Of a stretch of 64,000 nucleotides of DNA, positions 35,716 through 50,408 are shown one piece after another. The notes under the pieces were generated by a model. It saw only the letters and a program-made list of their open reading frames with translations, was not told the DNA's origin and searched no databases. A program made the translations under genes and the position numbers. The DNA lies in assembly GCA_030697555.1 (NCBI GenBank), contig JAUYPV010000054.1, positions 1-64,000 of the forward strand, in the 5' to 3' direction. The stretch is from Hyphomonadaceae bacterium. Lineage in GTDB: Bacteria; Pseudomonadota; Alphaproteobacteria; Caulobacterales; Hyphomonadaceae. How positions within the stretch are numbered: position 1 is the stretch's first letter; the number at the start of each line of letters is the position of its first letter.

Positions 35716-37812
35716 ATGCGGCAACTTGAATTCACGTGGGTGGCCCTGCTCGCCGCTGCGCTTTGCCTGTCCGGCTGCGATGCGTCGGATCGGTTTGCTT
35801 CGCCTGCATTCAACGCCAGGCAGTTGGCCGAAGCCCCACGCAAAGGGTGGATCACCAACGGTGGGAATATCTTGAATCACAGGTATTCGCCGCTCGACAC
35901 CATCGATCGGGAAAATGTCGCCAAGCTGAAGGGCGTGTGGCGGGCGTCGCTGGGCGGCTCCGGCATGGGCCCCGGCTTTTCCGCGGAGGCTCAGCCCCTG
36001 ATCCACGAGGGCGTCATCTATGTGGTCACCGGCGAGAACGACGCTTTCGCGATCGATGTCGAGACCGGGAACACGCTCTGGAAGTATGACGCCGGGATCG
36101 ATCTCAAGAAAACCGTGAACGTCTGCTGCGGCTGGCTCAGCCGCGGCCTCGGCATGGGTGAGGGCAAGATCTTCGTCGGCCAGCTCGACGCCAAGCTCGT
36201 GGCGCTCGATCAGCGAACCGGAGAGATCATCTGGTCAGTGCAGGCGGCCGATCCCTCCGTCGGTTATTCGATCACATCTGCGCCGCTCTACTATGAGGGA
36301 CTGGTCATTGTAGGCTTTGCCGGAGGCGAGTACGGCATACGCGGCCGAATCTCCGCTTACGACGCCAAGACCGGCGAGGAAATCTGGAATTTCTGGACCA
36401 TCCCACGGCCGGGTGAGTTCGGCCATGACACCTGGCCGCAGGACAATGACGCCTGGAAGTATGGCGGCGCGCCGGTCTGGCAGACGCCGGCAGTCGATCC
36501 CGAACTCGGCCTGATCTATTTTTCCACCGGCAATCCCGGTCCCGATCTCAACGGCGCGATCCGCGCGGGCGACAACCTGTTCAGCGTCGCGGTTGTCGCG
36601 CTGGATGTGAAGACCGGCAAGTATCGCTGGCACTTCCAGGAAGTGCATCACGACATCTGGGACTATGACTCGCCCAACCCGGTCATCCTTTTCGACGCTG
36701 CCGTTGACGGCAAACCGCGCAAAGGAATCGCGAACGCGTCCAAGTCCGGCTACCTCTATATTCTCGACCGCGTCACAGGCGAGCCGTTGATTGGCATTCC
36801 CGAAACGCCGGTGCCGCAGGAGCCGACTCAGGCGACGGCGGCGACGCAGCCCATCCCCGTCGGCGATGATCTGGTTGCGCACCGCATTCTCAAAGCGCCC
36901 GAGGGCTGGGAGCTGGTCAACGAGGGCAAGACCTTCGCCCCCTTCAAGTCCGACAAGGCCACGCTCTATGCGCCAAGCGCGGGGGTAAACTGGCCGCCGA
37001 GTTCCTACGATCCAAAATCCAATCTGATGTTCATCTGCACCAATAGCGGTATTGGCGGCGCGTTCGGCGGGGATGCCGATGGCATGATCGGCCCGCCGCC
37101 CGGACAGCAATATATGCAGGGCGGCTTCTCCGGTGCGCGGGGCGCCGGAGGCGTGGTCGAACCTCAAGGCCCTTCATTCGCAGCGGTCAATCTCACTACC
37201 AACCGCATCGCCTGGCGCCAGATGGGCCGGGTCTGTGCTGGCGGTTCGATCACTACCGCCGGCGGACTGATATTCGTCGGCCGCGCCGACGGCGTGATGA
37301 CGGCGCTCGACAGTTCGGACGGAAAGCTGCTCTGGGAATTCCAGACGGACGGCGGCATTCACGGAACGCCGACCACGTTCGAGTACAAGGGCAAGCAGTA
37401 TGTCGTCGTCATCGCCGGCGGCCACATCTTCTCGACGCTCAAGAGCAATGACGGCGTTTGGCTGTTCGCCCTGGACGGAGCGATGCAGCCGCTGCCTGCT
37501 GACGTCACAAAGGCGATCGGCCCCAGAGGCGTTGCCGTCTTCGCGCCGCCTCCGGCCGTGCCGTCCACCCGGAAAGCCGACGTCAAGCATGGCGAGGAAA
37601 TCTACCGCACGGTCTGCATGGCCTGCCATGGCGAGAACGGAGAGGGCGGCCATGAGAACGGCCCGCCGCTGCCGAAGACGCTGACCATCGACTCGATCAT
37701 GTACACCGCGGACGCAGGGCGGAACGACATGCCCTCCTTCCGCGGAACTTATAACGCCGGGGATTTCCACGATGTCGCCAGCTACATCCACGACGTGCTT
37801 CTGGCGAGGTAG
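35716..37812 (+). CDS. PQQ-dependent quinohaemoprotein alcohol dehydrogenase, lipoprotein
   Basis: 698 residues. Lipobox LSGC near residue 21. The eight-bladed propeller carries the vicinal disulphide pair NVCCGW (C137, C138), catalytic Asp in WDYD (D316, with a second Asp at 318), NPGPDLNGAIRAGDNLF, and several W-docking repeats (TGEIIW, TGEEIWNF, TGKYRWHF, DGKLLWEF). A C-terminal cytochrome c domain has CMACH (C634-H638) and GxNDMPSF, which supplies the distal Met. It oxidises alcohols in the periplasm and passes electrons through its haem. No PQQ synthesis genes lie in the window. An Asp two residues after the catalytic Asp can mark lanthanide use but is not decisive here. Confidence 0.93.
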   Translation: MRQLEFTWVALLAAALCLSGCDASDRFASPAFNARQLAEAPRKGWITNGGNILNHRYSPLDTIDRENVAKLKGVWRASLGGSGMGPGFSAEAQPLIHEGVIYVVTGENDAFAIDVETGNTLWKYDAGIDLKKTVNVCCGWLSRGLGMGEGKIFVGQLDAKLVALDQRTGEIIWSVQAADPSVGYSITSAPLYYEGLVIVGFAGGEYGIRGRISAYDAKTGEEIWNFWTIPRPGEFGHDTWPQDNDAWKYGGAPVWQTPAVDPELGLIYFSTGNPGPDLNGAIRAGDNLFSVAVVALDVKTGKYRWHFQEVHHDIWDYDSPNPVILFDAAVDGKPRKGIANASKSGYLYILDRVTGEPLIGIPETPVPQEPTQATAATQPIPVGDDLVAHRILKAPEGWELVNEGKTFAPFKSDKATLYAPSAGVNWPPSSYDPKSNLMFICTNSGIGGAFGGDADGMIGPPPGQQYMQGGFSGARGAGGVVEPQGPSFAAVNLTTNRIAWRQMGRVCAGGSITTAGGLIFVGRADGVMTALDSSDGKLLWEFQTDGGIHGTPTTFEYKGKQYVVVIAGGHIFSTLKSNDGVWLFALDGAMQPLPADVTKAIGPRGVAVFAPPPAVPSTRKADVKHGEEIYRTVCMACHGENGEGGHENGPPLPKTLTIDSIMYTADAGRNDMPSFRGTYNAGDFHDVASYIHDVLLAR

Positions 37813-37863
37813 GCGCTGAAGCCTCCGCGCGCGGCAGGTTGGCGTTGGTCTCCTCGGCACGTA

Positions 37864-37882
37864 TGATTATATCGTATAAGTA
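37864..37882. promoter_or_regulatory. Shared operator-like element, site 3
   Basis: TGATTATAT-CGT-ATAAGTA. TTATA-TCG-TATAA within it is a perfect inverted repeat. It lies 14 nt before the lignostilbene-type oxygenase ATG and next to its ribosome site (AGGAAGG), so a bound protein would block transcription or ribosome access. Confidence 0.4.
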
Positions 37883-37896
37883 GGAAGGGCAGGAGC

Positions 37897-39357
37897 ATGG
37901 TCACCTTAACCCAGACCACAACACGCCAGGGGTTCTTCGCACCGGGGCGGTTCGAGGCGGATGTCTTCGACTGCGAGGTCCAGGGCGGGAAAATCCCCGA
38001 AGATCTCAACGGCGCCTTCGTCCGCGTTGGCGGCGAGTTCTTCTATCCCTCCATGTATCCCAATGACGGCGGCTTCAGCGTCGATGGCTACATCTCGATG
38101 TTTCGCTTCAAGAAAGGGATCGTCGACTATCGCGGCCGCTGGGTGAAGACCCCGCGCTGGAAAGCCAACCGGGCCGCCAACCGCCAGCTCTTCGGCAATT
38201 ATCGCAACCCCTTCTTCGACGATCCCAGCGTCAAGGGCCTAGATCGCACCGTCGCCAACACTGCTGTGGTTGCGCACGCCGGCAAGCTCTTCGCGCTCAA
38301 GGAGGATGCGCTTCCCTACGAGATCAACCCCAAGACGCTGGAGACAATCGGTCCGTGGGATTTCAACGGCAAATACAAGTCGGAGACCTTCACCGCCCAC
38401 CCGAGATGGGATCCCGTCACCGGCGACATGATCACCTACGGCTATGAAGCCTCGGGCCTGCTCACCAACGACATCTATGTCTGCGTCGTCGACAAGCACG
38501 GCAATGTAAAGAACGAGACGCGCTTCAAGGCGCCTTACCTCTCGATGATGCACGACATGGTGCTGACCGAGAAACACCTCGTCTTCCCGATGGGCGGTTA
38601 TGTCACGAACATGAAGCGGCTCAAGGCCAACAAAGTCCATTGGGGATGGGACAAGTCGGCGCCGGGCTATATTGGCATCCTGCCGCGCGACGGCGACGGC
38701 AAGGACGTACGCTGGTTCAAGACGCCGCTCACGGCGGCTGTGCATGTCTTCGGCGGCCGCACGGTCGGAAACAAAGTGATCATCGAGGCGGGCCTCTACA
38801 ATTCGAACCCGTTTCCCTTCTTCGAGAATACGGACGGCTCGCCCTTCGATCCCACCAAGACGACCTGTTATCTCCATCGCCAGACCTTCGATCTCAATTC
38901 GAAGAGGGATGGATTCGAGGACGAGATCATCTTCTCCGATCCGGCCAGCGACCTTGGAAAGATCGACGATCGCTATACCGGCCAGGCGTATCGCGAGATT
39001 TTCACGACCTACGCCGATCCCAAACGTCCGTTCGACGAGGCCCGCGCCGGCAACCTGCGCGGCCGCGTCAGCAACTGCTATGGCCGGTTCGATCTGGGCA
39101 CGAAGAAGATCACGCCGCTGTTCGCCGGCAACACGCATTCTCTGCAGGAATCCACCTTCGTTCCCAAGAGCAAGAATGCGCCGGAAGGCGAGGGCTATCT
39201 TATGGGTGTCGCCTCCAACTACGCCGAGATGCGCGCCGAGCTGATCATCGCAGACGCCCAATCAATGACCGAGCTTGCGCGCGTGATCCTGCCCTTCCGC
39301 TCCAGCGCTGCATTGCACGGCAAATGGATGGGCGACGACGAACTCGATTTCGGATGA
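37897..39357 (+). CDS. Carotenoid cleavage oxygenase, lignostilbene dioxygenase type
   Basis: 486-residue seven-bladed propeller enzyme. The four iron-binding histidines are in TAHPRWDP (H168), MMHDMV (H219), AAVHVFGG (H283) and ALHGKW (H474). The residues that recognise the 4-hydroxystilbene ring in Sphingomonas LsdA (Phe59, Tyr101, Lys134 as I recall them) fall at F60, Y102 and K135 here (GGF, FGNYRNP, FALKED), a constant offset of one. It should split a stilbene-type C=C bond with O2 to give two aromatic aldehydes. No signal peptide. It lies 84 nt after the PQQ dehydrogenase and 8 nt before a small Tat-signal gene. Confidence 0.9.
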   Translation: MVTLTQTTTRQGFFAPGRFEADVFDCEVQGGKIPEDLNGAFVRVGGEFFYPSMYPNDGGFSVDGYISMFRFKKGIVDYRGRWVKTPRWKANRAANRQLFGNYRNPFFDDPSVKGLDRTVANTAVVAHAGKLFALKEDALPYEINPKTLETIGPWDFNGKYKSETFTAHPRWDPVTGDMITYGYEASGLLTNDIYVCVVDKHGNVKNETRFKAPYLSMMHDMVLTEKHLVFPMGGYVTNMKRLKANKVHWGWDKSAPGYIGILPRDGDGKDVRWFKTPLTAAVHVFGGRTVGNKVIIEAGLYNSNPFPFFENTDGSPFDPTKTTCYLHRQTFDLNSKRDGFEDEIIFSDPASDLGKIDDRYTGQAYREIFTTYADPKRPFDEARAGNLRGRVSNCYGRFDLGTKKITPLFAGNTHSLQESTFVPKSKNAPEGEGYLMGVASNYAEMRAELIIADAQSMTELARVILPFRSSAALHGKWMGDDELDFG

Positions 39358-39365
39358 GGCGCGCC

Positions 39366-39635
39366 ATGGCTGGTCAATCGCTTCAACCTTCCCGGCGGGC
39401 GCTCATGAAGGGCGCCGCCGTCCTGGCCGGCGCCACAGCTCTGCCTGCGGCCTGGGCGGCCGGCGCCATCGGCGAAACGCCCTCCAGGCCGGTCGTCACC
39501 TTCTACATGGATCAGCTGATCATCGACCAAACGGGCAAGTCGCCCGCCTATCGGCCGCCAGCCGGGCTTCGTTCTGCGGGGCCGGTCGAGCACCTGAGCG
39601 ATGCCGAGATCAGGTTGCTGCAGGGCTGGGCATGA
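39366..39635 (+). CDS. Small twin-arginine signal protein (89 residues), unknown
   Basis: The N-terminus has SRRALMKG followed by a hydrophobic run ending LPAAWA, a good Tat signal with a cleavage site. The mature part is only ~57 residues (FYMDQLIIDQTGKSPAYRPP, ending SDAEIRLLQGWA) and contains no cysteine. Tat substrates are exported folded, so such a small one usually travels with a partner. The adjacent oxygenase lacks its own signal and starts the pair, making it a candidate passenger (inference). It starts 8 nt after the oxygenase stop. I know no named family for it. Confidence 0.65.
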   Translation: MAGQSLQPSRRALMKGAAVLAGATALPAAWAAGAIGETPSRPVVTFYMDQLIIDQTGKSPAYRPPAGLRSAGPVEHLSDAEIRLLQGWA

Positions 39636-39683: not shown

Positions 39684-40295
39684 ATGACATCGCACTTGAA
39701 ACTTGCAGGCGCCGCATTGGCCTTGGCGCGTGTACTCACCGCATGCAGCCCAGCGCCGGACAGCGCTGCCGCCGCGCCGGCGGCCCCCGCCGCATCGAGC
39801 TATGCAGACGATCGCGCAGCGATCGAGGATCTTCAGGGGCGCTATATGTTCGCGCTCGACTGGCGTGACGAGGATGCTTATGCAGCGACCTTCGCGCCGG
39901 ATGGCCAGATGGATTCCGCCGCCGTCACCGGCAAGGGCCGCGACGCCATCCGCCAGGAGATCATCGATATGGAAGCGCGCGAGGCCAAGCGAGCAACCGA
40001 AACCGGCAAGCCGGTTCCGCGCATGCGCCACAACATCACCAACGTGGCGCTCGAGATCGACGGCGATCACGCTTACGGTAAGGCCTATTGGACGTCCTAC
40101 ACCAACGCCAACGGCAAGCCGGAGATCAACGGCTATGGCCACTATGAAGACGAGATGATCAAGATCGACGGCATGTGGTATTTCGTGAAGCGCAAGATCT
40201 ACAACGAGTTTGCGCCCGGCCGCGAAGCGCCCGCCAAGGTGAACTGGCCACCGACCGGCGCTACGCCGACAGCCACGCCCGCATCGCCGTCGTAA
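39684..40295 (+). CDS. SnoaL_4-type NTF2-like lipoprotein
   Basis: 203 residues; signal peptide with lipobox LTAC, then an Ala/Pro linker. The domain (about 38-175) has YADDRAAIEDLQGRYMFALDW, YAATFAPDGQMDSAAVTG and MIKIDGMWYFVKRKIYNEF, the usual PF13577 plan. It is anchored on the outer face of a membrane. It is the last gene of the PQQ dehydrogenase-oxygenase-Tat protein series. NTF2-type lyases that make lignostilbenes for LSD enzymes are known, so it could be such a lyase, although those are not lipoproteins as far as I know. The 3' end overlaps the convergent hydrolase gene by 35 nt. Confidence 0.78.
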   Translation: MTSHLKLAGAALALARVLTACSPAPDSAAAAPAAPAASSYADDRAAIEDLQGRYMFALDWRDEDAYAATFAPDGQMDSAAVTGKGRDAIRQEIIDMEAREAKRATETGKPVPRMRHNITNVALEIDGDHAYGKAYWTSYTNANGKPEINGYGHYEDEMIKIDGMWYFVKRKIYNEFAPGREAPAKVNWPPTGATPTATPASPS

Positions 40296-40953
40296 CCTGA
40301 TCGGGGGCCTCGCAGGGCGCAAAGTGACCGGCATGTTCGAACACGATGAGGTTTGCACCCGGTACGGCTTGGGCGATCGCTTCGTGCTGGGCGGGCGGAC
40401 TCCACGCGTCCTGACGGCCGACGCCGACCAGCGTAGGGCATGTGATCGCGGAAAGCAGCGGCGCCGGGTCCGGCCGGTTGAGCAGGGCTCTGATCTGGGC
40501 CTCGTGCCGCTCGGGCGTGAAGCGGGTCACCATCTCCCGCAGCGGCTGCATCAGAGCGCTGTCCTGAACGCGGTCTGGATGCACCATTGGCGGCAGCCAG
40601 GCGTCGCACAGCGCCGCCATTCCTTCCCGATAGGCCAGCTCCACCAGCTGCATCCGCTTCTCGGTTTCGCCGGGCCTGAGTGTATGGATGCCGGTGTCCA
40701 GCAAGGCGAGGTGCTCCACTCGCTCGGGAGCGATCCGCATGACCTCGAGCGCCACTCGTGCGCCCATCGAATGTCCTGCCAGCGCAAAGCGCTTCGGAGC
40801 GCTATCGAGAGCGCACTCGGCCATCGCGGTCAGGCTGTCGCGTGCGCCATAGTCTACAACGATGGGAAGCGCGATATCGGAGAGTCCATCGGCCTGCGCA
40901 CGCCAGACCGTCGCATCGCACAGAAGGCCAGGAAGCAGGACGAGTTCGATCAT
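40261..40953 (-). CDS. Alpha/beta hydrolase
   Basis: 230 residues. LLPGLLCDATVW is the oxyanion-hole start, ALAGHSMGARVAL contains the nucleophile Ser (GHSMG), VGVGRQDAWSPPAQHE the Asp, and FEHAGHFAPCEAP the His, so the triad is complete. It is a cytoplasmic esterase or C-C hydrolase, substrate unknown. It is close in style to the hydrolase at 62553 (both begin LxPGxxCDxxxW). The 35-nt tail-to-tail overlap with the SnoaL lipoprotein means neither 3' end can change freely. Confidence 0.88.
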   Translation of the reverse strand: MIELVLLPGLLCDATVWRAQADGLSDIALPIVVDYGARDSLTAMAECALDSAPKRFALAGHSMGARVALEVMRIAPERVEHLALLDTGIHTLRPGETEKRMQLVELAYREGMAALCDAWLPPMVHPDRVQDSALMQPLREMVTRFTPERHEAQIRALLNRPDPAPLLSAITCPTLVGVGRQDAWSPPAQHEAIAQAVPGANLIVFEHAGHFAPCEAPDQVTTAMRAWLSA

Positions 40954-41030: not shown

Positions 41031-41558
41031 ATGAGGGAACAGATCACCTGGGTGCGCGCATGGATTGCTGGCGCGATATGCGTAGCTCTGGCCGCGTGTT
41101 CGCCCGGTGAGCAGGCGAGCAAGGGTCTGGCGGAAACGGCCGCTGCCGCGGCGCCGGCGGTCGCTGCGCCTGATCACGCCAAGGAAGCGAACAAGGCCGT
41201 TGCCATCGCTTTCTACAATGCAGCGCTCAACGACAAGGATTGGAATGCGGCCTCGAAACTGATCGGGTCGCACTACACCCAGCACAATCCGGCCGCGGTC
41301 GATGGCGTCGAGGGGATCAAGGCTCATGTCGAGAATCTCAAGAAGAATTTTCCGCTCAATCATGGCGAGATCAAACGCGCCTTCGTTGATGGCGACATTG
41401 TGATCCTGCACATCCACTCAAAGCGCACGCCGGAGTCCCTGGGCAACGCCATCGTCGACATGTTCCGTATCGAGGACGGCAAGGTCGTGGAGCATTGGGA
41501 CGTGGTCCAGCGCGTACCCGAAGCCAAAGACGCCCGGAACGCCAACACGATGTTCTAA
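41031..41558 (+). CDS. SnoaL-like (NTF2-fold) lipoprotein, second type
   Basis: 175 residues; lipobox LAAC. The domain has EANKAVAIAFYNAALNDKDW, IGSHYTQHNPAAVDGVEGI and a C-terminus of VEHWDVVQRVPEAKDARNANTMF type. This is the SnoaL/NTF2 variety common in proteobacteria with a conserved H-W-D-x-x-Q. It differs clearly from the PF13577-type proteins nearby. Members may isomerise or cyclise small ketones; most are uncharacterised. GGAGGAG lies about 10 nt before the ATG. It stands alone between divergent and convergent neighbours. Confidence 0.82.
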   Translation: MREQITWVRAWIAGAICVALAACSPGEQASKGLAETAAAAAPAVAAPDHAKEANKAVAIAFYNAALNDKDWNAASKLIGSHYTQHNPAAVDGVEGIKAHVENLKKNFPLNHGEIKRAFVDGDIVILHIHSKRTPESLGNAIVDMFRIEDGKVVEHWDVVQRVPEAKDARNANTMF

Positions 41559-41614: not shown

Positions 41615-42559
41615 TCAGAGTCCCGGCGGAGGAGGCGCAGCGCGTACTGCGGGTGGCGGGCCACTCACATCCCCCCATCCCGTGGGCTCATCCCGCGGCA
41701 TCAGCTTCATGAACGCTTCGACGCCGTGGAGTTCTCCGCCGTAGACCTTGAACGCCTCCCAGACCACCAAGCGAGTGCTTTCCCCGCGCGCCCACGATAG
41801 GCGGTACCAGACGATCTGCATCTCCTCGTCTACCGCCGCGAGGCGCTGCTGGAAGGAGCCGCGGCCATCCCCGATCGGCTGGGCTTTCATGTTCTTGCAG
41901 GTGTCGGTGCGCGTGCACTGCGGCCCAGCCATGACGTTGCCGTTCTCAAAGCGATAGGCATCGTCGGCGAAGGGCGCGTTGACGGCAACGAAGCTGCCGG
42001 CCAGCAGGCCCTTGGGATAGTGCTCGGCCACCTTGATCATGTTGGCGCGAGACATGCGCTGTTCCCTGGTTGGCACATAGGCCATGGCCGCGCTCGCCTT
42101 CTCCAGCGCGTCGATGTTGAAGATCACGCCCTCGGTCTGGTTGCGCGTTACCTGGGTTTCGATTTCGGCGATCTTGCCGTCCGCCAGCTTCATGCGCAGC
42201 ACGAGCATCACCGGCACGCCATACTCTTCCAGCATGATATGCGAGCCAGCCACGCCCTGGCGCACGTCGATGAAGTCCTGCCGGTAGTCGCGCGGTCGCG
42301 AAGCGCCTTTCCACAGCGGGCTCTCGCCAACTTTGTATTGCGCGTAGTCCTCGGTGAATTTGACGTTCTCCGCCAGCGGCAGTTTCGAAGGATCGTGCGC
42401 CAACAGCGCATCCGCGTAACTGGTTATCGCGGCAGACAGACAGGTCCGGTCGCAGCTGGCGTTCTTCAGCGCCGCGCCGTCGGTAGTCGCGCAGCCGCCG
42501 AGCATTGCGGCGAACGCAATCGCAATGGCGGTGAAGCTGATGGGCTTATGCAGGTTCAT
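41615..42559 (-). CDS. Lipoprotein, two-repeat NTF2-like (DUF8021-like), paralogue 3
   Basis: 314 residues; lipobox LGGC; GGGAGG 6 nt before the ATG. The N-half has CDRTCLSAAITSYADALLAH, DPSKLPLAENVKFTED, LRMKLADGKIAEIETQV. The C-half has MIKVAEHYPKGLL, YRFENGNVMAGP and FKVYGGELHGVEAFM. It aligns with the proteins at 23626 and 25681. It also contains a C-T-R-T-D-T-C segment absent from the other two, which may form a disulphide. The Pro-rich tail (PPPAVRAAPPPPG) is unusual. Function unknown; context suggests the same catabolic role. Confidence 0.75.
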   Translation of the reverse strand: MNLHKPISFTAIAIAFAAMLGGCATTDGAALKNASCDRTCLSAAITSYADALLAHDPSKLPLAENVKFTEDYAQYKVGESPLWKGASRPRDYRQDFIDVRQGVAGSHIMLEEYGVPVMLVLRMKLADGKIAEIETQVTRNQTEGVIFNIDALEKASAAMAYVPTREQRMSRANMIKVAEHYPKGLLAGSFVAVNAPFADDAYRFENGNVMAGPQCTRTDTCKNMKAQPIGDGRGSFQQRLAAVDEEMQIVWYRLSWARGESTRLVVWEAFKVYGGELHGVEAFMKLMPRDEPTGWGDVSGPPPAVRAAPPPPGL

Positions 42560-42683: not shown

Positions 42684-44069
42684 ATGTTGGAGCTCCTGGA
42701 CAAACTCATGCGGGCAGTCGGTCCCGGCGTGGTCACGGCGCCTGAGGGCGCCGATCTCGCGCGGCGTCTGCACGACTTCACTCAATCAGCGCCGGCAGGA
42801 GTGTCGATCATCGGCGTCGCCTGTCCGCGAACGACATCGGAAGTCTCCGCGATTCTGCGAATCTGCAACGCCGCGAACGTCAAGGTAACGCCCCAGGGCG
42901 GCATGACCGGAATGGTTGGCGGCGGCGTGCCGGTCGAACCATGCCTCATCCTCTCGCTGGAGCGCATGCGGGCCATCGAAGAGATCGACCGGAACGCATC
43001 CACGATGACCGTCGAGGCGGGCGTTGTGCTCGAGACGGTGCAGGCGGCGGCCGATGCGGCTGGTTTCTTCTTTCCACTGGACCTGGGCGGGCGCGGCTCG
43101 ACCCAGATGGGCGGGGCAGCTTCGACCAACGCCGGCGGCAACCGGGTGATCCGCTTCGGCATGATGCGGGATCTGGTGCTGGGCGTAGAGGCGGTGCTGG
43201 CGGACGGCACGGTGGTCTCAAGCCTCAACAAGATGATCAAGAACAATACCGGCTACGACATCAAGCAGCTGTTCATTGGTTCCGAAGGCACGCTGGGGGT
43301 CATCACGCGGCTCGTCCTGCGACTATCGCCCAAGCCGCGGAGCGTCTGCACAGCTCTTTGCGCTGTGGCGGACTATGATGCCGTGCTCAACCTCCTGCGC
43401 GTGGCGAGAAGCGGCCTTGGCGGCGGACTCTCCGCGTTCGAGGCGATGTGGCCGGAATTCTATCGTCTCGGCACGACAGCGCTTGGGCGTCAGCCGCCGA
43501 TTGCGCCGGCTCATGGCCTCTATGTGCTGATCGAGACGATGGGCGCCGATCCGGAGGGAGATGCTGCGCGGTTCGAAGCCGTCATTGGCGCGGCGATCGA
43601 GGAGGGCGTCGTCGCGGACGCCGTCATTGCGGGATCTGGCGCGCAGGCTCGGGCCTTGTGGGACATACGCGACTGTCCGGGCGAATTTCCGAAAGTCTTC
43701 TGGCCGCAGATGGCGTTCGACATCTCCGCCCCGACGGGCGAGATCGCGGCGCTGAAACACGAGATCGAAACCGCGTTGCGCGCCCGCTGGCCGAAGATCG
43801 AGACCGTGTTCTTCGGGCACGTCGCGGACGCCAATCTTCACTTCTCGGCAAAGCTCGGCGGCGGGCCCATGCCCGAGCACGAGATCGATGAAGTCGTCTA
43901 CGCAGCGGTCGGGCGGCGCAAGGGCGCGATCTCGGCGGAGCACGGGATCGGATTGGCCAAGCGCGCCTTCCTGCATCATTCGCGCAGCGCCGAGGAATTG
44001 GCGCTGATGCGGACGATCAAGGCGGCGCTGGACCCGAAGGGCATCCTCAATCCTGGCAAGGTGCTGTGA
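42684..44069 (+). CDS. FAD-linked 2-hydroxyacid dehydrogenase (GlcD/D-2-HGDH-like)
   Basis: 461 residues, VAO-type FAD protein. CPRTTSEVSAILRICN and TPQGGMTGMVGGGVP are the FAD pyrophosphate loop, GGAASTNAGGNRVIRFGMMRD and FIGSEGTLGVIT the second FAD block, and GHVADANLHFS plus EHGIGLAKRAF the C-terminal catalytic area with the metal/substrate histidines. It oxidises a D-2-hydroxy acid (lactate, 2-hydroxyglutarate or an aryl analogue) to a 2-oxo acid. A benzoylformate decarboxylase-type gene lies nearby, so a mandelate-like acid is a sensible guess. It is 4 nt from the next gene. Confidence 0.92.
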   Translation: MLELLDKLMRAVGPGVVTAPEGADLARRLHDFTQSAPAGVSIIGVACPRTTSEVSAILRICNAANVKVTPQGGMTGMVGGGVPVEPCLILSLERMRAIEEIDRNASTMTVEAGVVLETVQAAADAAGFFFPLDLGGRGSTQMGGAASTNAGGNRVIRFGMMRDLVLGVEAVLADGTVVSSLNKMIKNNTGYDIKQLFIGSEGTLGVITRLVLRLSPKPRSVCTALCAVADYDAVLNLLRVARSGLGGGLSAFEAMWPEFYRLGTTALGRQPPIAPAHGLYVLIETMGADPEGDAARFEAVIGAAIEEGVVADAVIAGSGAQARALWDIRDCPGEFPKVFWPQMAFDISAPTGEIAALKHEIETALRARWPKIETVFFGHVADANLHFSAKLGGGPMPEHEIDEVVYAAVGRRKGAISAEHGIGLAKRAFLHHSRSAEELALMRTIKAALDPKGILNPGKVL

Positions 44070-44073
44070 GGCG

Positions 44074-45024
44074 ATGGCGATGACCGATCTGCGCAGTGTG
44101 GCGATTGTCGGAGCGGGGGCGATGGGATGCTTCTTCGCCGCGCGGCTGACCGAGAGCGGGGCAGCGGTGACGCTCATCGATATCGACGCTGCGCGGCTGG
44201 CGGCCCTCGTGCGTGATGGCGTCACCGTCAGCGACGATCGCGGAGAGCGCGTCGTCAAGGTCGGCGCCGCCAAAGCAACCGAAGTTGCCGGGCCGGTTGA
44301 TCTGGTGGTGCTGTTCACCAAGTCCATGCACAGCTCGGCGGCGATCGCATCGGTGGTGCATCTCGCCTCGCCGGAGACATGGGCGCTGACGCTGCAGAAT
44401 GGCTTGGGCAATGCCGAGGTCATGGCGGAGGTGTTCGCCCCGGAGCGCATCCTCGCCGGTGTGACCAACGTGCCGGCCGATCTGCAGGGACCGACCCGGG
44501 TCGCATCGCATGGCGCGGGACAGATCACGCTGGGCGGGTTCGTTGCTTCGGCTAAGGGAGGCGCCGAGCCGGTTGCGGCGCTGCTGCGCAGGGCGGGCCT
44601 GACGGTCACCGTCGATGAGAATGTGGCGGCGGCGATATGGGACAAGGTCGCATTCAACGCCGCGCTGAACGCGCTCGCGGCGATCACTCTGTTGCCGAAT
44701 GGCGGGCTCGATTGTCCGGCGGGGCGGCGGGTGGCGGCAAGCGTTGTCGGGGAGGTGGTCGCTGTCGCCGCCGCGAAAGGCATCCGGCTGGAGCGCGGGC
44801 GGATCGAGGCGAGGATCGACTATGCGCTGGCCAGCCATCGAACCCACAAGGCGTCGATGCTGCAGGACAGGCTGGCGGGCAGGCGGACAGAGATCGAGCA
44901 GATCAACGGCGCCATCGTGTGGGAGGCCGAGGCCGTGGGGCTGCAAGCGCCGGTCAACGCGACGCTCGCGGACCTGGTGCGGATGATCGAGGCGCCGCCG
45001 GCCGGTGTTTCTATTCCACGCTGA
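44074..45024 (+). CDS. Ketopantoate reductase family protein (PanE/ApbA-like)
   Basis: 316 residues. The NADP motif VAIVGAGAMGCFFAARL is near residue 8; VVLFTKSMHSSAAI, TLQNGLGNAEVM and LAGVTNVPADLQGP follow. The catalytic lysine is in AIWDKVAFNAALNALAAIT, and KASMLQDRLAGRRTEIEQINGAIV is the C-terminal signature. It reduces a 2-oxo acid to a hydroxy acid with NADPH. Being coupled to a 2-hydroxyacid dehydrogenase outside any pantothenate context, it may act on an aromatic or branched 2-oxo acid. The last 14 nt overlap the convergent decarboxylase gene. Confidence 0.9.
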   Translation: MAMTDLRSVAIVGAGAMGCFFAARLTESGAAVTLIDIDAARLAALVRDGVTVSDDRGERVVKVGAAKATEVAGPVDLVVLFTKSMHSSAAIASVVHLASPETWALTLQNGLGNAEVMAEVFAPERILAGVTNVPADLQGPTRVASHGAGQITLGGFVASAKGGAEPVAALLRRAGLTVTVDENVAAAIWDKVAFNAALNALAAITLLPNGGLDCPAGRRVAASVVGEVVAVAAAKGIRLERGRIEARIDYALASHRTHKASMLQDRLAGRRTEIEQINGAIVWEAEAVGLQAPVNATLADLVRMIEAPPAGVSIPR

Positions 45025-46642
45025 CTTCCACGAGGCTCGGCCCTTTCATCCTGAAGGCTTCGAGCAAGGCTTCATCGAGATCGGCGGTGGAATCGGCATG
45101 GCGCGCTGCAACGCCCTGGCCGCGGGCGAGTGCGCAGAAGTCGATCTCCGGCAGGTCGGCGCCCGGCGTGCGGTCGAGGCCGAAGCGGCGGCCGAATTCG
45201 TAGAGCGCCTCGTAGCGTCCGTTCTTGACGATGATGAAGGTGACGGAGAGGCCGAGCTGGGCTGCGCTCCACAGGCCCTGGATGGCGTACATGCTCGAGC
45301 CGTCGCCGAGGAGGGCGATGACTTTGTCCTTCGGCCGCGCCAGCGCCACGCCGATGGCCGCGGGCAGGGCGTGGCCGAGGCCGCCGCTGGCGCAGGTGTA
45401 GAAGGTGTCGCGGTCGATCATTGGAAGATGATCGTGCATCGGCCCGCGCGTGCTCGGCGCTTCCTCGACGATGACGGCGCCTTTGGGGCGCAGGGTCGCG
45501 ATCTGCTGGCAGAGATAAGAGTCGGTAAGTTTCCCGCCGGTGAGCTTGCGCGGACGGACCAGAGGCTTGGGCGCGGCGCGGACGCGCGGCTGGGCGCGGG
45601 CGAGCAGGTCGCCGACGCCTGTCTTGATGCTGGTGACGATCGCGGTTCCGACAGGCGCCCAGGCGGCGATGGTGGGGTCGTCGACCAGCTGGACGAGGGT
45701 CGATCCTTCGGGTGCGCACGGGCCGAAGCCTTCGATATGGTAGGTGAAGACGGGGGCGCCGAGGACTAAGATGAAATCGTGTCCCGACAGCGCCGCGACG
45801 ACTGCTTCGCGCGCGGGCGTCAGGAAGCCGGCGAACAGCCTGTGGTCTTCGGGAAAGCTGTTGCGCGAGGAGAATGGCGCTACCCAGACCTGCGCCTGGT
45901 GTTTTTCGGCGAGGGCGATCACCTCGTCCCAGGCGTCGTCGCGGGCGACGCCAGCGCCGACGATGATGGCGGGACGCGCGGCCTTGTCGAGCGCTTTGGC
46001 CGCCGCATCGAGCATGGCTTCATCGCCGCGTATGCTGTCGCTGACGTGACGTGGCGCGACGGGCATACACACGCGCTCCCAATCGTCGATCGGAATCGAC
46101 ACGAAGGTCGGCCCGCGCGGGGGCTGCATCGCGACGTAATAGGCGCGGGCGATAGCGGCGGGCACGTCTTCGGCGCGGGCGGGTTCGCAGGCCCACTTCA
46201 CGAAAGGCTTGGGAAAATCGGTGGCCTGCTGGGCGAACAGAAAGGGCTCGAGCGGCATGATCGAGCGCGCCTGCTGGCCTGCCGTCACGACCAGCGGCGT
46301 CTGGTTGCGGTAGGCGGTGAAGAGATTGCCGAGGGCGTGGCCGACGCCGGCGGAGGAGTGGAGATTGACCAGCGCCGGCCGGCGGTTGGTCTGCGCGAAC
46401 CCATCGGCCATGCCGAGGACGATGGATTCCTGAAGCCCCAGCACATAGCGGAAATCATCCGGAAATTCCTTGAACATCGGCAACTCGGTCGAGCCGGGAT
46501 TGCCGAACACTGTAGTCATGCCGAAGCTGCGGAACAGGTCGAACACGGCTTCGCGAACGGTGAGGCGTTGCGTCGATTCGGCGACTTGTTCTTTAGCGTG
46601 CCTGGTCGGCGGGCGCGTGGATGGCGTCTTGGTTTTGGACAT
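45011..46642 (-). CDS. mdlC: Benzoylformate decarboxylase-like ThDP enzyme
   Basis: 543 residues. Aligned by motif to Pseudomonas BFD: FGNPGSTELP (Ser51 = Ser26), LGLQESIVLGMADG (Glu72 = Glu47, the ThDP glutamate), VNLHSSAGVGHALG (His95 = His70) and GAPVFTYHIEG (His = His281). All four active-site residues are kept. The ThDP-Mg motif is LLGDGSSMYAIQGLW...IVKNGRY. It decarboxylates aryl-glyoxylates to aldehydes, the second step after mandelate oxidation. A 25-residue N-terminal tail (Lys/Thr/Pro-rich) is extra. It is last in an operon with an HD protein, an oxygenase and an esterase. Confidence 0.9.
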   Translation of the reverse strand: MSKTKTPSTRPPTRHAKEQVAESTQRLTVREAVFDLFRSFGMTTVFGNPGSTELPMFKEFPDDFRYVLGLQESIVLGMADGFAQTNRRPALVNLHSSAGVGHALGNLFTAYRNQTPLVVTAGQQARSIMPLEPFLFAQQATDFPKPFVKWACEPARAEDVPAAIARAYYVAMQPPRGPTFVSIPIDDWERVCMPVAPRHVSDSIRGDEAMLDAAAKALDKAARPAIIVGAGVARDDAWDEVIALAEKHQAQVWVAPFSSRNSFPEDHRLFAGFLTPAREAVVAALSGHDFILVLGAPVFTYHIEGFGPCAPEGSTLVQLVDDPTIAAWAPVGTAIVTSIKTGVGDLLARAQPRVRAAPKPLVRPRKLTGGKLTDSYLCQQIATLRPKGAVIVEEAPSTRGPMHDHLPMIDRDTFYTCASGGLGHALPAAIGVALARPKDKVIALLGDGSSMYAIQGLWSAAQLGLSVTFIIVKNGRYEALYEFGRRFGLDRTPGADLPEIDFCALARGQGVAARHADSTADLDEALLEAFRMKGPSLVEVSVE

Positions 46643-46690
46643 TAGCTTTCTCTGGACTGCGCTGGTTGGGGTCGACCTGCAGCGCCGAGG

Positions 46691-47461
46691 TCATAGGAAG
46701 TTGTTCGGCCAGATCATGGTCCGCCACATATGCGCGACGGCCGAGCCGTCAAAACCCAGTCCTTCTTCGGGCTGCTTGAAGTGGCGGCCGATGATGTCGG
46801 TGAAGATGTTCGGATCGACCGGCTCGCTCTTCTCGAAAAAGTAGACATCGTAAAGCGTGACCAGCCGCGAGCTCATGTACCAGCGGTGCCGGCGGGCCTC
46901 TTCGGCGTCCTTGCGGATGTAGTTGGGCGGCACATAGTCGTGACCGAAGAATTTGAGGTAGCTTTCCGGGTAGGAGTAGCCATTGGCCTCGTCAGCGACA
47001 TAGCGCAGGGCCTGATGGTATTTCACCGCCCAGGCAATCTCGTCGCTGACATAGGGGGCGATCATCTGCGCGCCCCAATAGCCGTGGTCGGCGCGCACGA
47101 AGCAGCCATTGGAGATGTCGTGCAGCAGGATCGCCATCACGGTTTTCTCGTCCTGCCCCTGCTCGAGCGCGCGTTTGGCGCTGGTGAGGAGGTGGGTGAT
47201 GGTGATGCCGCCGAAGCGGAGCCGGAAGAAGTCGAGCAGGTGCGGCTTCGCTGGCATTCTCGGCAATCTGGGATTGTCGCCCATCATGAAGACGGCGTTC
47301 GGCGACATCTTCGCCAGCAGCGGCATTTCGAGGCTTTCCATTCCCGTGCCGACCGAGGCGATAGGATGGGGCATGATCATCCGCTGGCGGCCGGCCTGCG
47401 GGTAGTCGTCGCCCAGCGCTTCCTGGATCAGGTAGTCTTCGTAACGGTCGTCGTCGGTCAT
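46691..47461 (-). CDS. HD-domain metal protein (hydrolase or diiron oxygenase-like)
   Basis: 256 residues from ATG 47461, which overlaps the oxygenase stop (ATGA). Possible metal ligands follow an H...HD...H...H...D order: ITHLLTSAKRAL, AILLHDISNG, RADHGYWGAQMIAPYV, WAVKYHQALRYV and VTLYDVYFF. This order is shared by HD phosphohydrolases and by the PhnZ/inositol-oxygenase group of mixed-valent diiron oxygenases. Position beside a stilbene-type oxygenase and an aryl-oxo-acid decarboxylase makes an oxidative C-C or C-P style cleavage interesting but unproven. Residues 130-175 (ESYLKFFGHDYVPPNY) are not from the core domain. Confidence 0.7.
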   Translation of the reverse strand: MTDDDRYEDYLIQEALGDDYPQAGRQRMIMPHPIASVGTGMESLEMPLLAKMSPNAVFMMGDNPRLPRMPAKPHLLDFFRLRFGGITITHLLTSAKRALEQGQDEKTVMAILLHDISNGCFVRADHGYWGAQMIAPYVSDEIAWAVKYHQALRYVADEANGYSYPESYLKFFGHDYVPPNYIRKDAEEARRHRWYMSSRLVTLYDVYFFEKSEPVDPNIFTDIIGRHFKQPEEGLGFDGSAVAHMWRTMIWPNNFL

Positions 47462-48879
47462 AACGCTTTCGCTCGTTGTGCGCCGGAACTGGTTCGGGGC
47501 GCGAAGCAGCCATGAAACGCCATGGGCTGGTCGAAGGGAAGCTGGATCGTGGCCAGTGGGGGCGCCTCCATCGCGTTTGCGTCTAGCACGAGCAGATCGG
47601 CGCGGTTTTTCCCGAGGCGGTTGACGACACAAAGAATAAAGCCGTCGCCTTCGGCGCTGTCGGGCGAGCGCGGGACGAGGACCGGCTCCTGGGCGCTGCC
47701 ATCCGGGATGGGGTGCAGGCTGCGCACGCCGGTCTCCCAGTCGAGGCGGGCGATGCCGTCGCGGGTCTTCATGAAGCCATAGCGGTAGCGGCTCATCTGG
47801 AAGCGGTCGTCGCAGCGCGGCATCTCGCCCATGGCGCCGGGGAAGGGGCGCACTTCGGATGCAACATCGCTGTTGCTGGCGAGATCGAAGGTGACGCGGC
47901 TGACGGTGGGGATGCCTTTCATCGGATCGGTGCGTTGGCCTTTCACATCGCGGAAGAAGGGGAAAGCGTTGGTTCCGCTGATCGTGCAGTCGACATGCAC
48001 CTTCGAGCCCTCGGTGTAGGCGTTCATGACGTGGCCCATGAAAGCGCCGGGCGATCGGAACCAGCGTATGTCCTTGGTCGTGCCTGAGCGGGGCATGATC
48101 CCCCACATCGCCGGGAGGTTGGGATCAAAGGCGTAGAAGTCGCCGCCCTTGGTCAGGCGCTCCATGTCGACGGTCATCGGCATGACAGGGAAGATCACGT
48201 GCTCGCGCGTGACGGCGAAGTCGTGAGCGACGCCAGGATAGGGGGCCTGGAAGTCCTCCTGGCGGAAGAGTTTTCCGTCTTTGTCGATGACTTGCAGCAT
48301 CATGTCGCCGTCGAAGCGGCGGTGCGCGAAGAAGCTGAACGACCACCACTCTCCCGTGACCGGGTCGATCTTGGGATGGGCAGAGACGCTGGTGCTTTCG
48401 AGCGCGCCGTTGAAGTCCCAGGTGGGCAGGGTCTCGAGCGTATCGGGATCCATCTCGGTGGGGTGGCTGTCCTCGCGCAGGGCGAAGAGGCGGCCGTGGT
48501 GATAGTGGGCGTAGGTGTTGGCGGTGTTGTCGCGGTCTAGTCTCGGAGCGGCGGGGTCGTCGGTGTAGGGGTTGCGATACTTGCCGTAGAGCCGACGCCG
48601 CGCGGCGTCCTGCGCCTTGTAGCGTTCGGTTTTCACATACCGGCAGCGGAAGTCGACATGGCCATCCTCGAAGCGGAACAGTGACACCATGCCCTCGCCA
48701 TTGATGATGATGTCGCGGTCCAGCGTCGGATACTGGCTGTCGGGACCGGCGCGGTAATAGCTGCCGTTGAGCTCCCGTGGGATGGCGCCGATGACTTCGC
48801 AGTCGCGCACGTCGGCCTCGAAGCGAAGGGCGCGCTGCTGGCCGTAGAAGCTTTCGGCCGAATAGAAAGGCTCAGGCAT
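47458..48879 (-). CDS. Carotenoid oxygenase family protein, second copy with altered ring pocket
   Basis: 473 residues from ATG 48879 (a GTG at 48888 is an alternative). The four iron histidines are in VSAHPKID, GVAHDFAV, MGHVMNAY and AFHGCFA. At the three LsdA ring-binding positions it has Ile (near 58), Tyr101 (YGKYRNP) and Arg135 (FALREDS), so Phe and Lys are replaced. It is homologous to the enzyme at 37897 but well diverged. It probably cleaves a related, perhaps non-phenolic or differently substituted, alkene. It overlaps the esterase gene upstream by 8 nt and the HD gene downstream by 4 nt. Confidence 0.9.
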   Translation of the reverse strand: MPEPFYSAESFYGQQRALRFEADVRDCEVIGAIPRELNGSYYRAGPDSQYPTLDRDIIINGEGMVSLFRFEDGHVDFRCRYVKTERYKAQDAARRRLYGKYRNPYTDDPAAPRLDRDNTANTYAHYHHGRLFALREDSHPTEMDPDTLETLPTWDFNGALESTSVSAHPKIDPVTGEWWSFSFFAHRRFDGDMMLQVIDKDGKLFRQEDFQAPYPGVAHDFAVTREHVIFPVMPMTVDMERLTKGGDFYAFDPNLPAMWGIMPRSGTTKDIRWFRSPGAFMGHVMNAYTEGSKVHVDCTISGTNAFPFFRDVKGQRTDPMKGIPTVSRVTFDLASNSDVASEVRPFPGAMGEMPRCDDRFQMSRYRYGFMKTRDGIARLDWETGVRSLHPIPDGSAQEPVLVPRSPDSAEGDGFILCVVNRLGKNRADLLVLDANAMEAPPLATIQLPFDQPMAFHGCFAPRTSSGAQRAKAL

Positions 48880-49756
48880 TATCGCCACCGGATTTTCTGA
48901 TGAAGGCTGCGAGTTCGCCGCCGAGACTATCTTCGCTCGATCCGAGAGAGAGTGCGGCCGTCATGTGGTTGCCGTCGGGAAGGAAAAGCATGCGCGGCAA
49001 GGCGCGCCTGGCTCGGAACCATTCTTCGGCCAGCAGAGCCGCCTGACGCTGGAACAGAGGTGGGTCGTATTCGGCGACGGTGAAGAGGCACGGCGTCTCT
49101 GTCGCGATCAGCCCGGGCAGGGACGACTGGTCGGGGAATCGCGAGGGATCGGTTCCATAGTAGGCGTTCTCGAAGGGCCCGTGCTCGAGGCGAACGACGT
49201 CGTAGATGCCCGACAGCATGATGGCGCCGGCGATTGTTGGTCGATCGCCGTGGAAACAGGTCATCGCGACGTAGCTCGCCACATGCGCCGCTCCGGCGGA
49301 CTGGCCCACCAGGAAGATGCGACCCGGATCGCCGCCATGCTGCGTGGCGTTGGCTCTCAGCCAAGCGACGACTGCCGCCAGATCCTCCGCGCCGGCGGGC
49401 CAGGGGAAAGCCGGAGCGAGGCGGTAAGTCATCGTGACGCCGATGAATCCGCTGCGCGCCGCCCACGCGCCGACATTGTTGTAGAAGGGCGCGCTCTCAG
49501 CGCCCTTGTCTCCTCCGATGAAACCGCCGCCGTGGACATAGACCACGATGGCGCGCGCGCCGCCTTTCGTGGCCGGCTGGAAGACGTCGAGCCTGTGACG
49601 CGGATCGGGGCCGTAGGAGATATTGCGTTCGACGGTGCAGATGTCCGGGGAAGGGCGCAGGGCGAGTGGCGCAAACAATGCAATGGTCTCGGCGAACATC
49701 TCCGGTCGCATCACGCTGCCGATTTCGCGAACGCGCTTGCGGATCTGGTCATCCAC
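48872..49756 (-). CDS. Alpha/beta hydrolase_3 esterase (HSL family)
   Basis: 294 residues. YVHGGGFIGGDKGAES is the oxyanion-hole HGGG motif, LVGQSAGAAHVASY the nucleophile elbow, and FLPDGNHMTAALSLG contains the catalytic His; the Asp is probably in EYDPPLFQ. Members hydrolyse small acyl or aryl esters in the cytoplasm. It is the first gene of a four-gene minus-strand operon (esterase, oxygenase, HD protein, decarboxylase). It could free a phenolic or carboxyl group before double-bond cleavage (inference). A CTTGACC inverted repeat lies just upstream. Confidence 0.88.
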   Translation of the reverse strand: MDDQIRKRVREIGSVMRPEMFAETIALFAPLALRPSPDICTVERNISYGPDPRHRLDVFQPATKGGARAIVVYVHGGGFIGGDKGAESAPFYNNVGAWAARSGFIGVTMTYRLAPAFPWPAGAEDLAAVVAWLRANATQHGGDPGRIFLVGQSAGAAHVASYVAMTCFHGDRPTIAGAIMLSGIYDVVRLEHGPFENAYYGTDPSRFPDQSSLPGLIATETPCLFTVAEYDPPLFQRQAALLAEEWFRARRALPRMLFLPDGNHMTAALSLGSSEDSLGGELAAFIRKSGGDNA

Positions 49757-49791
49757 GAGACTGGTCTCCGGCAGGCGCCGCCGCGCAGGCT

Positions 49792-49818
49792 CTTGACCCG
49801 ATGCTGACGGCGGTCAAG
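49792..49818. promoter_or_regulatory. Inverted repeat, candidate operator
   Basis: CTTGACC at 49792-49798 and its exact reverse complement GGTCAAG at 49812-49818, with a 13-nt centre. It lies 35 nt upstream of the esterase operon and 41 nt upstream of the SnoaL gene, in the divergent gap. Spacing between arm centres is about two helix turns, as for dimeric regulators. Confidence 0.45.
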
Positions 49819-49859
49819 CTCAGGCGAGCGATGCACATATCATCAGGGAAGGCATAGCG

Positions 49860-50408
49860 ATGGCGAATGACGGGTTGGCCTGGCCCAGTGGCGTTCCCGC
49901 GACGATGCCGGCGCAGGATCGGGTGGACATCGAGGAGACCTACGCCCGCTATGCCTGGGGCATCGATCTTGCCGATTCCGAAATGGCGCTCAGCGCGTTC
50001 GCCGAGGACGGGGAGTTCGATCATCTCTGGCAGGGTCGGGTCAAAGGCCACGCGGCGATCCTGAAAAGCCTCGAAGAGCTTTGGTATGACCGCCAGCACT
50101 GGTGGCTTGGGCGGCAGCACCTGTTCAACCATTTCATCATGACGCCCACCGAAGAGGGCGCACGGGTGCGGTGCTTCTTTCAGATCGTGCAGTACAATGT
50201 CGACTACGGCACGAATTTCCTGTTCGGCATCGGCACGCGCGACGATCAACTGGTGCAGCGCGACGGCCGCTGGCTCTTCCGCACGCTCTACGTCAACGCC
50301 TGGCGCGCCATGGGCGACGTGCCGTGGAAGGGGAAGGTGACGATGAAGAGCCGGCCCATGCCTCCGCCCAGCCATCCGGACAAGGCGCAGGACGGGATGA
50401 AGCGGTAG
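49860..50408 (+). CDS. SnoaL_4-type NTF2-like protein, cytoplasmic
   Basis: 182 residues, no signal peptide. DRVDIEETYARYAWGIDLADSE is the first helix with the Y-A-x-G-x-D style of PF13577, followed by ALSAFAEDGEFDHLWQGRVKG, LFNHFIMTPTEEGARVRCFF and DDQLVQRDGRWLFRTLYVN. AGGGAAGG lies about 8 nt before the ATG. It is divergent from the esterase-oxygenase operon, so it is the best local candidate for an NTF2-type lyase feeding the oxygenase (context plus analogy to LdpA-like enzymes). No catalytic residue has been checked. Confidence 0.8.
   Translation: MANDGLAWPSGVPATMPAQDRVDIEETYARYAWGIDLADSEMALSAFAEDGEFDHLWQGRVKGHAAILKSLEELWYDRQHWWLGRQHLFNHFIMTPTEEGARVRCFFQIVQYNVDYGTNFLFGIGTRDDQLVQRDGRWLFRTLYVNAWRAMGDVPWKGKVTMKSRPMPPPSHPDKAQDGMKR

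Follow-up and report, generated by a model that had tools for sequence, protein, structure and literature searches.

The 64,000-nucleotide stretch of DNA analyzed here (the window), from Hyphomonadaceae bacterium assembly GCA_030697555.1, contig JAUYPV010000054.1, contains a gene island at about 20.5 to 50.4 kb (window numbering throughout) that, judging from its gene families, we predict with moderate confidence to be a catabolic locus for lignin-type aryl dimers, partly periplasmic and with predicted substrates and reactions. It combines two oxygenases of the lignostilbene-cleaving type, LSD1 and LSD2, with a three-domain exported relative of the lyase LdpA, further NTF2-fold proteins of the SnoaL families, a pyrroloquinoline quinone (PQQ) dehydrogenase, and a benzoylformate decarboxylase (Table 1). 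Gene families were assigned with Pfam and NCBIfam profiles and some genes by direct reading of the sequence; export signals were assigned by reading. A first-pass annotation of this DNA had proposed a lignostilbene-type locus at 35716-50408. The genes that it named (two carotenoid/lignostilbene-type oxygenases, five NTF2/SnoaL genes, a PQQ dehydrogenase, an esterase, and an aryl-oxo-acid decarboxylase) are borne out by the family assignments in Table 1, but its range proves too narrow: the protein that resembles LdpA (21566-23629), whose resemblance it overlooked, lies upstream. This protein is itself not a true LdpA, and the LdpA-clade gene of the organism lies on another contig, C167.

LSD1 and LSD2 are full-length PF03055 proteins that sequence and phylogenetic analyses place in the stilbene-cleaving LSD branch and not in the carotenoid branch. 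The closest solved structures are LsdA, LSD4 of SYK-6 (6xm6), NOV1, and the Pseudomonas LSD 5v2d, with E values of 1e-110 to 1e-95 against LSD structures versus 2e-45 or weaker against carotenoid and apocarotenoid oxygenases. Both proteins retain all four iron-binding histidines (H167, H218, H282, and H472) in an alignment of 39 enzymes, in which the stilbene-binding motif appears as YRNP and KED/RED. Phe-59 of LSD stacks on the 4-hydroxyphenyl ring, and Tyr-101 and Lys-134 bind that ring (Kuatsjah et al. 2021, PMC8191317). This trio is complete in LSD1 (F59/Y101/K134) and reads I59/Y101/R134 in LSD2; Ile-59 is common to LSD2 and its closest relatives, and R134 was found in LSD2 alone among the 39 enzymes. 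In a tree of 49 proteins, both oxygenases fall inside the stilbene-oxygenase clade (support 100/99), apart from the carotenoid enzymes, and their group is sister to LsdA/LSD4/NOV1 (88/82). They share with LsdA, SYK-6 LSD4, and NOV1 39 to 42% identity, the iron histidines, and Y101 (LSD1 also F59 and K134) but differ in forming a sister subgroup and in the I59 and R134 of LSD2; the third iron histidine is preceded by Ser-283 in LSD4, by Val in LSD1, and by Gly in LSD2. An LSD-family gene is by itself common, with PF03055 present in 102 of 150 relatives.

Two observations on relatives of these oxygenases deserve mention in their own right. The nearest plasmid relative of LSD2 (44% identical) is an LSD-type gene at 10007-11446 of the AO1 plasmid pBAR1 (L190), behind which lie genes for an aldehyde dehydrogenase and an NTF2 protein; it is a candidate for cleaving a stilbene intermediate of bisphenol A, and the NTF2 gene proved not to be of the kind found in the window. 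Furthermore, three LSD homologs carry N-terminal twin-arginine-type signals (KRRNFVGG, SRRNLLKG, and SRRSVLTG, respectively), namely, L188:11851-13467 on Croceicoccus marinus plas1 and G268:C2:46126-47769 and 47738-49501 in a related genome, suggesting that these are exported stilbene oxygenases. The LSD1 of the window has no such signal.

The protein at 21566-23629 has 687 amino acids and three SnoaL_4 domains, D1 (about residues 40-255), D2 (about 262-467), and D3 (about 483-685). Its best PDB matches are 8abt, 8abu, and 8abv (E values of 3e-32 to 1.5e-27), titled as NaLdpA with resveratrol, NaLdpA H97Q with erythro-DGPD, and SpLdpA with erythro-DGPD. LdpA, formerly LsdE, is an NTF2-family diarylpropane gamma-formaldehyde lyase (8abt, 8abu, 8abv, and 8abw). 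Comparison with LdpA by structure prediction, which the first-pass annotation had put forward as a check, gave NaLdpA and SpLdpA as the top fold matches of a model built from a shallow alignment of five sequences (mean predicted local distance difference test score 61, predicted template modeling score 0.62); the loops of LdpA are absent from the sequence. We tracked H97 of LdpA on the strength of the PDB title, since it is exchanged to Gln in the substrate complex 8abu. This column is His in D1, D2, and D3 and is kept in 16/16 third domains and 12/16 second domains of the homolog alignment. Trees built from 59 and from 65 domains unite LdpA, PcfL-like proteins, and other nonexported single-domain proteins in one clade (100/100), which includes the C167 gene of the host and excludes all three domains of the triple protein. 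This placement, with the absent loops, rules out a true LdpA within the window. The triple protein is like LdpA in the homology of each domain, the H97 column, and its best fold matches but unlike it in having three fused domains instead of one, in being an exported lipoprotein where LdpA has no export signal, in missing both loops, and in lying outside the LdpA clade.

Related triplets occur in several gene arrangements: as a single gene (G268:C8, G268:C2, G173, G245, G281, G366, and G693), as one domain plus two (G193:C6 104145/104894 and G268:C27), and as three adjacent genes (G193:C6 115351/116061/116798 and G693 110338/111033/111740). Their domains group largely by position, with 9 label changes on the tree against a minimum of 4 and a shuffled mean of about 30, a pattern that points to a fixed assembly of three parts, whether fused or split. 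Among relatives of LdpA, BaiE, LinA, and scytalone dehydratase are trimers, and by analogy, a single-chain pseudotrimer is plausible for the triple protein. Export signals could be read in many triplets and none in G193 104145/104894. Searches of 14 congeners turned up no triple protein and no single LdpA, and a peptide-pattern scan of the genome contigs for the triple protein gave only one match, distant and single-domain, the patterns being poorly conserved. A second group of triple-LdpA genes (G173:C7:544-556 kb, G245:C70:152-178 kb, G281:C1:2.047 Mb, and G366:C12:69-73 kb) has no LSD nearby and probably serves a different substrate; aldehyde dehydrogenase, beta-keto acid cleavage enzyme, AraC-type, and amidohydrolase genes were read near some of its members.

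The remaining SnoaL proteins are of another kind. The first-pass annotation had suggested an LdpA-type lyase role for those at 39684, 41031, and 49860, an assignment that we could not sustain: no LdpA appears among the PDB matches of 49860 up to an E value of 1, and LdpA is matched by 39684 at an E value of 0.8 only. When these three and the protein at 32177 were searched with an LdpA-type profile, only 39684 responded, weakly (1e-10), and none of the four is closer to LdpA than general SnoaL proteins are. Lipoprotein-type signals were read at the N termini of 35716, 39684, 41031, 41615, and 21566 and no export signal in 37897, 47458, 49860, and 32177; we agree with the earlier remark that no known route of this type includes such lipoprotein NTF2 copies. 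We also recovered a previously overlooked set of three related proteins (23626, 25600, and 41615), here termed the CDR family after a conserved CDRxCL motif, which are 33 to 34% identical to one another and match no Pfam family. The leading Foldseek matches of a low-confidence CDR model (predicted local distance difference test score 40) are NTF2-like proteins or NTF2-like designs, which lends weak support to a probable NTF2-like fold in these exported two-domain proteins. All three CDR genes of the host genome fall in the window, and searches of three congeners and one further genome of the same bacterial family found none.

Comparison of gene neighborhoods indicates that the pairing of LSDs with particular NTF2 genes exceeds chance and is conserved elsewhere. 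In G268:C8, from another family, a triple protein, a medium-chain oxidoreductase, a pair of PQQ dehydrogenases (sharing 64 and 55% identity with the window enzyme), an LSD, an amidohydrolase, and a CDR protein lie within 17 kb. In G193:C6, from a third family, separate D1-D2-D3 genes, a PQQ dehydrogenase, a SnoaL gene, and an LSD lie within 8 kb, and G693 has D1-D2-D3 genes with a PQQ dehydrogenase. The unit of LSD2, SnoaL49 (49860), and the esterase recurs in three other genomes (G173:C3, G245:C6, and G268:C1), in G245:C6 with the decarboxylase and in G173:C3 with SnoaL49 (73% by BLAST over 152 amino acids), the decarboxylase (50%), and ApbA (44%) within 14 kb; whole-length identities in the SnoaL49 set (64 to 67%) exceed those of LSD2 (about 40%). 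LSD1 relatives adjoin PQQ dehydrogenases in G268:C35, and the enzymes beside the LSDs there and in G268:C8 are 52 to 64% identical to that of the window. On Croceicoccus marinus plas1, an LSD1-clade oxygenase lies between a CDR protein and an exported homolog (39%) of SnoaL39 (39684); LSD1 with CDR and exported SnoaL genes also occurs on Croceicoccus and Novosphingobium plasmids. Accordingly, of the earlier proposal of several lyase/oxygenase pairs, the conserved NTF2-oxygenase neighborhoods (LSD2/SnoaL49, LSD1/SnoaL39-type, and triple protein/LSD/PQQ) hold, and the LdpA-type character of the NTF2 genes within the proposed locus does not. Finally, the amidohydrolase at 20551 is 75 to 79% identical to those in clusters of LdpA- or PcfL-like genes with LSD (Novosphingobium sp. 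RL4 and Sphingobium sp. V4) and near the G773 LdpA gene, and benzoylformate decarboxylase homologs (46 to 50%) occur in six LdpA/LSD loci of other genomes. The HD-domain gene at 46691 was rejected as a conserved LSD partner, its homologs in G173 and G193, the genomes in which both genes were mapped, being on contigs without an LSD. G268 (3.2 Mb) is unusually rich in these families: there are 24 matches to the CDR family and 42 to PQQ domains, and the genome also has 7 PF03055 genes along with four triple-LdpA sets.

To quantify linkage, we used Poisson expectations from genome size, counting related genomes as independent, ignoring contig ends, and including the window, with gene sets chosen after some neighborhoods had been seen; for these reasons, the following figures are indicative only. 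A PQQ dehydrogenase lies within 3 kb of CDR genes in 7/35 cases (1.15 expected; p 2e-4) and of triple proteins in 4/14 (0.43 expected; p 1e-3). An LSD lies within 15 kb of triple proteins in 3/11 (0.51 expected; p 0.015), and LSD and CDR genes lie within 3 kb of each other in 1/25 (0.34 expected).

The host has three further PF03055 genes, on contigs C167, C151, and C23. That on C167 is a classical LSD, 60 to 62% identical to LsdA, LSD4, and NOV1. The C151 and C23 enzymes are without the Y101/K134 motif, and the latter groups with W134-type enzymes and, by its sequence, looks carotenoid-type. C167 also holds LigM (807 bits versus a cut-off of 580), LigA, LigB, 4-oxalomesaconate tautomerase, LigK, PobA, and PurU, and these genes lie beside the classical LSD and the LdpA-clade gene. 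Vanillin from any LSD reaction thus has an outlet.

On this basis we propose a route whose reactions, substrates, and cell compartments are all predicted. The dimer would enter via a TonB receptor, and its side-chain alcohol would be oxidized by the periplasmic PQQ dehydrogenase. The exported NTF2-fold proteins, above all the triple LdpA relative, might then catalyze a cofactor-free elimination, either dehydration or deformylation via a quinone methide as in LdpA, to give a 4-hydroxystilbene. Cytoplasmic LSD1 and LSD2 would split the stilbenes to aryl aldehydes, of which the vanillin type would pass to the LigM/LigAB pathway on C167. The esterase, SnoaL49, LSD2, benzoylformate decarboxylase, and 2-oxoacid reductase could form a second branch. 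Here we guess that the stilbene keeps its gamma carbon in the form of a carboxylate; LSD2 would then yield an aldehyde and an arylglyoxylate, the latter being converted to a second aldehyde by the decarboxylase. We propose this carboxystilbene step to account for the repeated presence of the decarboxylase and the 2-oxoacid reductase next to LSD2; in the literature examined, no LSD is described as cleaving a stilbene carboxylate to an arylglyoxylate. A different role for the decarboxylase, acting on arylglyoxylates from the GlcD-like oxidase, is equally plausible. In its fullest form, the proposal holds that an exported heterotrimer of diverged LdpA-type domains, made as one chain or from three genes, acts with the PQQ dehydrogenase to make stilbenes outside the cytoplasm, while a new SnoaL49-LSD2-esterase-benzoylformate decarboxylase branch cleaves carboxystilbenes to aldehyde and arylglyoxylate without prior loss of the gamma carbon; this conjunction we advance tentatively and rate as rather unlikely.

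Several observations weigh against a lignin-dimer locus of this kind. His at the H97 column proves little because, by reading, SnoaL_4 proteins in the window that are more distant from LdpA have it there too. Both LdpA loops (about residues 76-83 and 127-138) are gapped in all three domains of the triple protein, and E143 of LdpA is replaced by G/R/G in D1/D2/D3. LSD2 lacks K134 and F59, and both oxygenases miss the 800-bit cut-off of the NCBIfam LsdA equivalog (LSD1, 489 bits; LSD2, 468 bits), which makes them LSD-branch enzymes and not LsdA orthologs. In the window, the nearest LSD is 14 kb from the triple protein, most homologs of which elsewhere have no LSD within 15 kb, and the linkage p-values suffer from the counting of related genomes as independent. 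SYK-6 carries 62 NTF2 homologs and 8 LSDs (PMC12997858), so that mere copresence of such genes weighs little; conserved pairs do carry weight. Exported lyases combined with cytoplasmic LSDs would also demand stilbene transport. The locus is neither a carotenoid locus, nor a set of true LdpA copies, nor yet evidence for any given dimer.

Other explanations have to be weighed against the same evidence. The island might hold two or three unrelated pathways side by side and no single route, namely, a pathway for side chains via CoA esters that includes the triple protein (20.5-34 kb), a unit of PQQ dehydrogenase and LSD1, and an LSD2-benzoylformate unit. We regard this as a serious possibility, though short of probable: the modules lie on separate G268 contigs (C8, C35, and C1), genes in the window switch strand repeatedly, many triple-LdpA relatives have no LSD nearby, and the base composition of the window gives neither island borders nor a sign of recent acquisition. 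The joining of triple-LdpA, PQQ dehydrogenase, and LSD genes in one stretch in G193:C6 and G268:C8 and the confinement of all three CDR copies of the host to the window argue against such a separation. It is also conceivable, if improbable, that the exported NTF2 proteins (39684, 41031, 21566, and CDR) are not enzymes of the route but serve PQQ dehydrogenases or uptake by binding or as scaffolds. Within 3 kb, it is indeed PQQ dehydrogenases, and not LSDs, to which CDR genes are linked, and the described pathways that we examined have no role for exported SnoaL lipoproteins, but the LdpA-like triplets are conserved in domain order and sequence across orders, including the H97 column.

A further alternative keeps the splitting of a 4-hydroxystilbene but derives it from a nonlignin two-ring phenol, such as a plant stilbenoid, a lignan, or a bisphenol; we think this unlikely. 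The pBAR1 plasmid with the nearest plasmid relative of LSD2 belongs to Sphingomonas bisphenolicum AO1, which, going by its name, is a bisphenol degrader. LSD-type enzymes also serve pinoresinol catabolism (PMC12607616). However, the LigM and 4,5-cleavage pathway of the host, beside its classical LSD and LdpA-clade gene, suit methoxylated lignin units, and the AO1 LSD joins the LSD2 group weakly (86/34). As for carotenoid or apocarotenoid cleavage, named at the outset as the outcome that would overturn a lignostilbene locus, the oxygenases do share PF03055 with such enzymes, but the structure matches, tree position, and YRNP and KED/RED motifs rule out this identity to the extent that we give it hardly any credence; the host moreover has its separate carotenoid-like enzyme on C23.

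Table 1. Genes of the predicted aryl-dimer locus and its surroundings, in window positions
Feature	Position	Strand	Basis or remark
Amidohydrolase	20551..21420	-	PF04909
Triple LdpA-like NTF2/SnoaL_4 lipoprotein	21566..23629	+	Pfam SnoaL_4 x3 (290 bits), PDB matches, fold matches, trees, LAAC lipobox
CDR family protein 1, exported, two-domain, probably NTF2-like	23626..24582	+	Alignment; no Pfam
Medium-chain quinone oxidoreductase/alcohol dehydrogenase (MDR, PIG3-like)	24579..25577	-	NCBIfam
CDR family protein 2	25600..26646	+	Alignment; no Pfam
Thiolase, SCP-x/acetyl-CoA acetyltransferase type	26657..27895	+	NCBIfam
Acyl/aryl-CoA ligase 1	27973..29478 (start approximate)	+	NCBIfam
Enoyl-CoA hydratase	29478..30272	+	NCBIfam
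Short-chain dehydrogenase	30274..31047	+	NCBIfam
Class III CoA-transferase	31001..32152 (start approximate)	+	Sequence reading; nothing in NCBIfam at E 1e-40
SnoaL_4 protein, single domain, no signal peptide	32177..32611	+	Pfam, 48 bits
Acyl/aryl-CoA ligase 2	32619..34148 (start approximate)	-	NCBIfam
Major facilitator transporter, aromatic acid type	34145..35599	-	Sequence reading; related transporter genes at similar loci
PQQ dehydrogenase, C-terminal cytochrome c, lipoprotein signal	35716..37812	+	364 bits; 84 bp before LSD1
LSD1 oxygenase	37897..39357	+	PF03055, 359 bits
Small open reading frame, 89 amino acids, twin-arginine-type signal	39366..39635	+	Sequence reading; directly behind LSD1
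SnoaL39, SnoaL_4 lipoprotein	39684..40295	+	Pfam, 78 bits
Alpha/beta hydrolase	40261..40953	-	Pfam
SnoaL/SnoaL_2 lipoprotein	41031..41558	+	Pfam, 60 bits
CDR family protein 3, lipoprotein signal	41615..42559	-	Alignment; no Pfam
FAD-linked 2-hydroxyacid oxidase/dehydrogenase (GlcD-like)	42684..44069	+	Pfam, NCBIfam
Ketopantoate reductase-like 2-oxoacid reductase (ApbA)	44074..45024	+	Pfam
Benzoylformate (arylglyoxylate) decarboxylase, thiamine diphosphate enzyme	45011..46642	-	NF005485, 792 bits (equivalog cut-off of 493 bits passed)
HD-domain protein, weakly PhnZ-like oxygenase	46691..47458	-	Directly behind LSD2
LSD2 oxygenase	47458..48888	-	PF03055, 396 bits
HSL-type esterase	48872..49756	-	Pfam; 17-bp overlap with LSD2
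SnoaL49, SnoaL_4 protein, no export signal	49860..50408	+	Pfam, 54 bits
TonB-dependent outer-membrane receptor, possible substrate uptake	53188..56349	+	Sequence reading; related receptors near several related loci

Just beyond the island, the minus strand at 50429-53038 codes for two secreted proteins of the DUF6152 type (51654 by Pfam and 51226 by similarity), flanked by 50429 and 52085, which match no Pfam family. In G268:C2 and G268:C1, DUF6152 genes are again paired with 50429-type genes, close to CDR/PQQ or LSD genes.

The predicted aryl-dimer locus shares the logic of an NTF2 lyase with an LSD with the PcfL-LsdD (beta-5) and LdpA-LsdA (beta-1) systems of Novosphingobium aromaticivorans (PMC11323797 and PMC12997858), and clusters of these types in related genomes also hold benzoylformate decarboxylase and amidohydrolase homologs, as does the window. 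It differs in its PQQ dehydrogenase, exported NTF2 proteins, and SnoaL49-LSD2-esterase unit, which are absent from the described pathways in the papers examined. In the lignin catabolism of Rhodococcus jostii RHA1, benzoylformate decarboxylase turns methoxybenzoylformate into vanillin (PMC9811514), and the 4-hydroxybenzoylformate pathway of that organism resembles the window in pairing such a decarboxylase with a glycolate-oxidase-like enzyme; in contrast, the window genes sit with LSD genes in an alphaproteobacterial-type locus, and the functional link between them is our proposal. We found no units described in the open literature searched that join lignostilbene with signal peptides, PQQ or the periplasm, or benzoylformate decarboxylase, and the specificity of most LSD and NTF2 homologs is unknown according to a 2026 review (PMC12997858).

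In the routes known so far, stilbenes are made from lignin dimers by single-domain NTF2 lyases, by decarboxylases, or by oxidases. The locus offers a short list of clonable genes: the triple-LdpA protein with the PQQ dehydrogenase; LSD2 with SnoaL49, the esterase, and the benzoylformate decarboxylase; and LSD1 with CDR and exported SnoaL proteins. It points to a candidate way of bacterial lignin-fragment breakdown, and if the triple protein acts outside the cytoplasm, a part of lignin-dimer breakdown would precede uptake into the cell.

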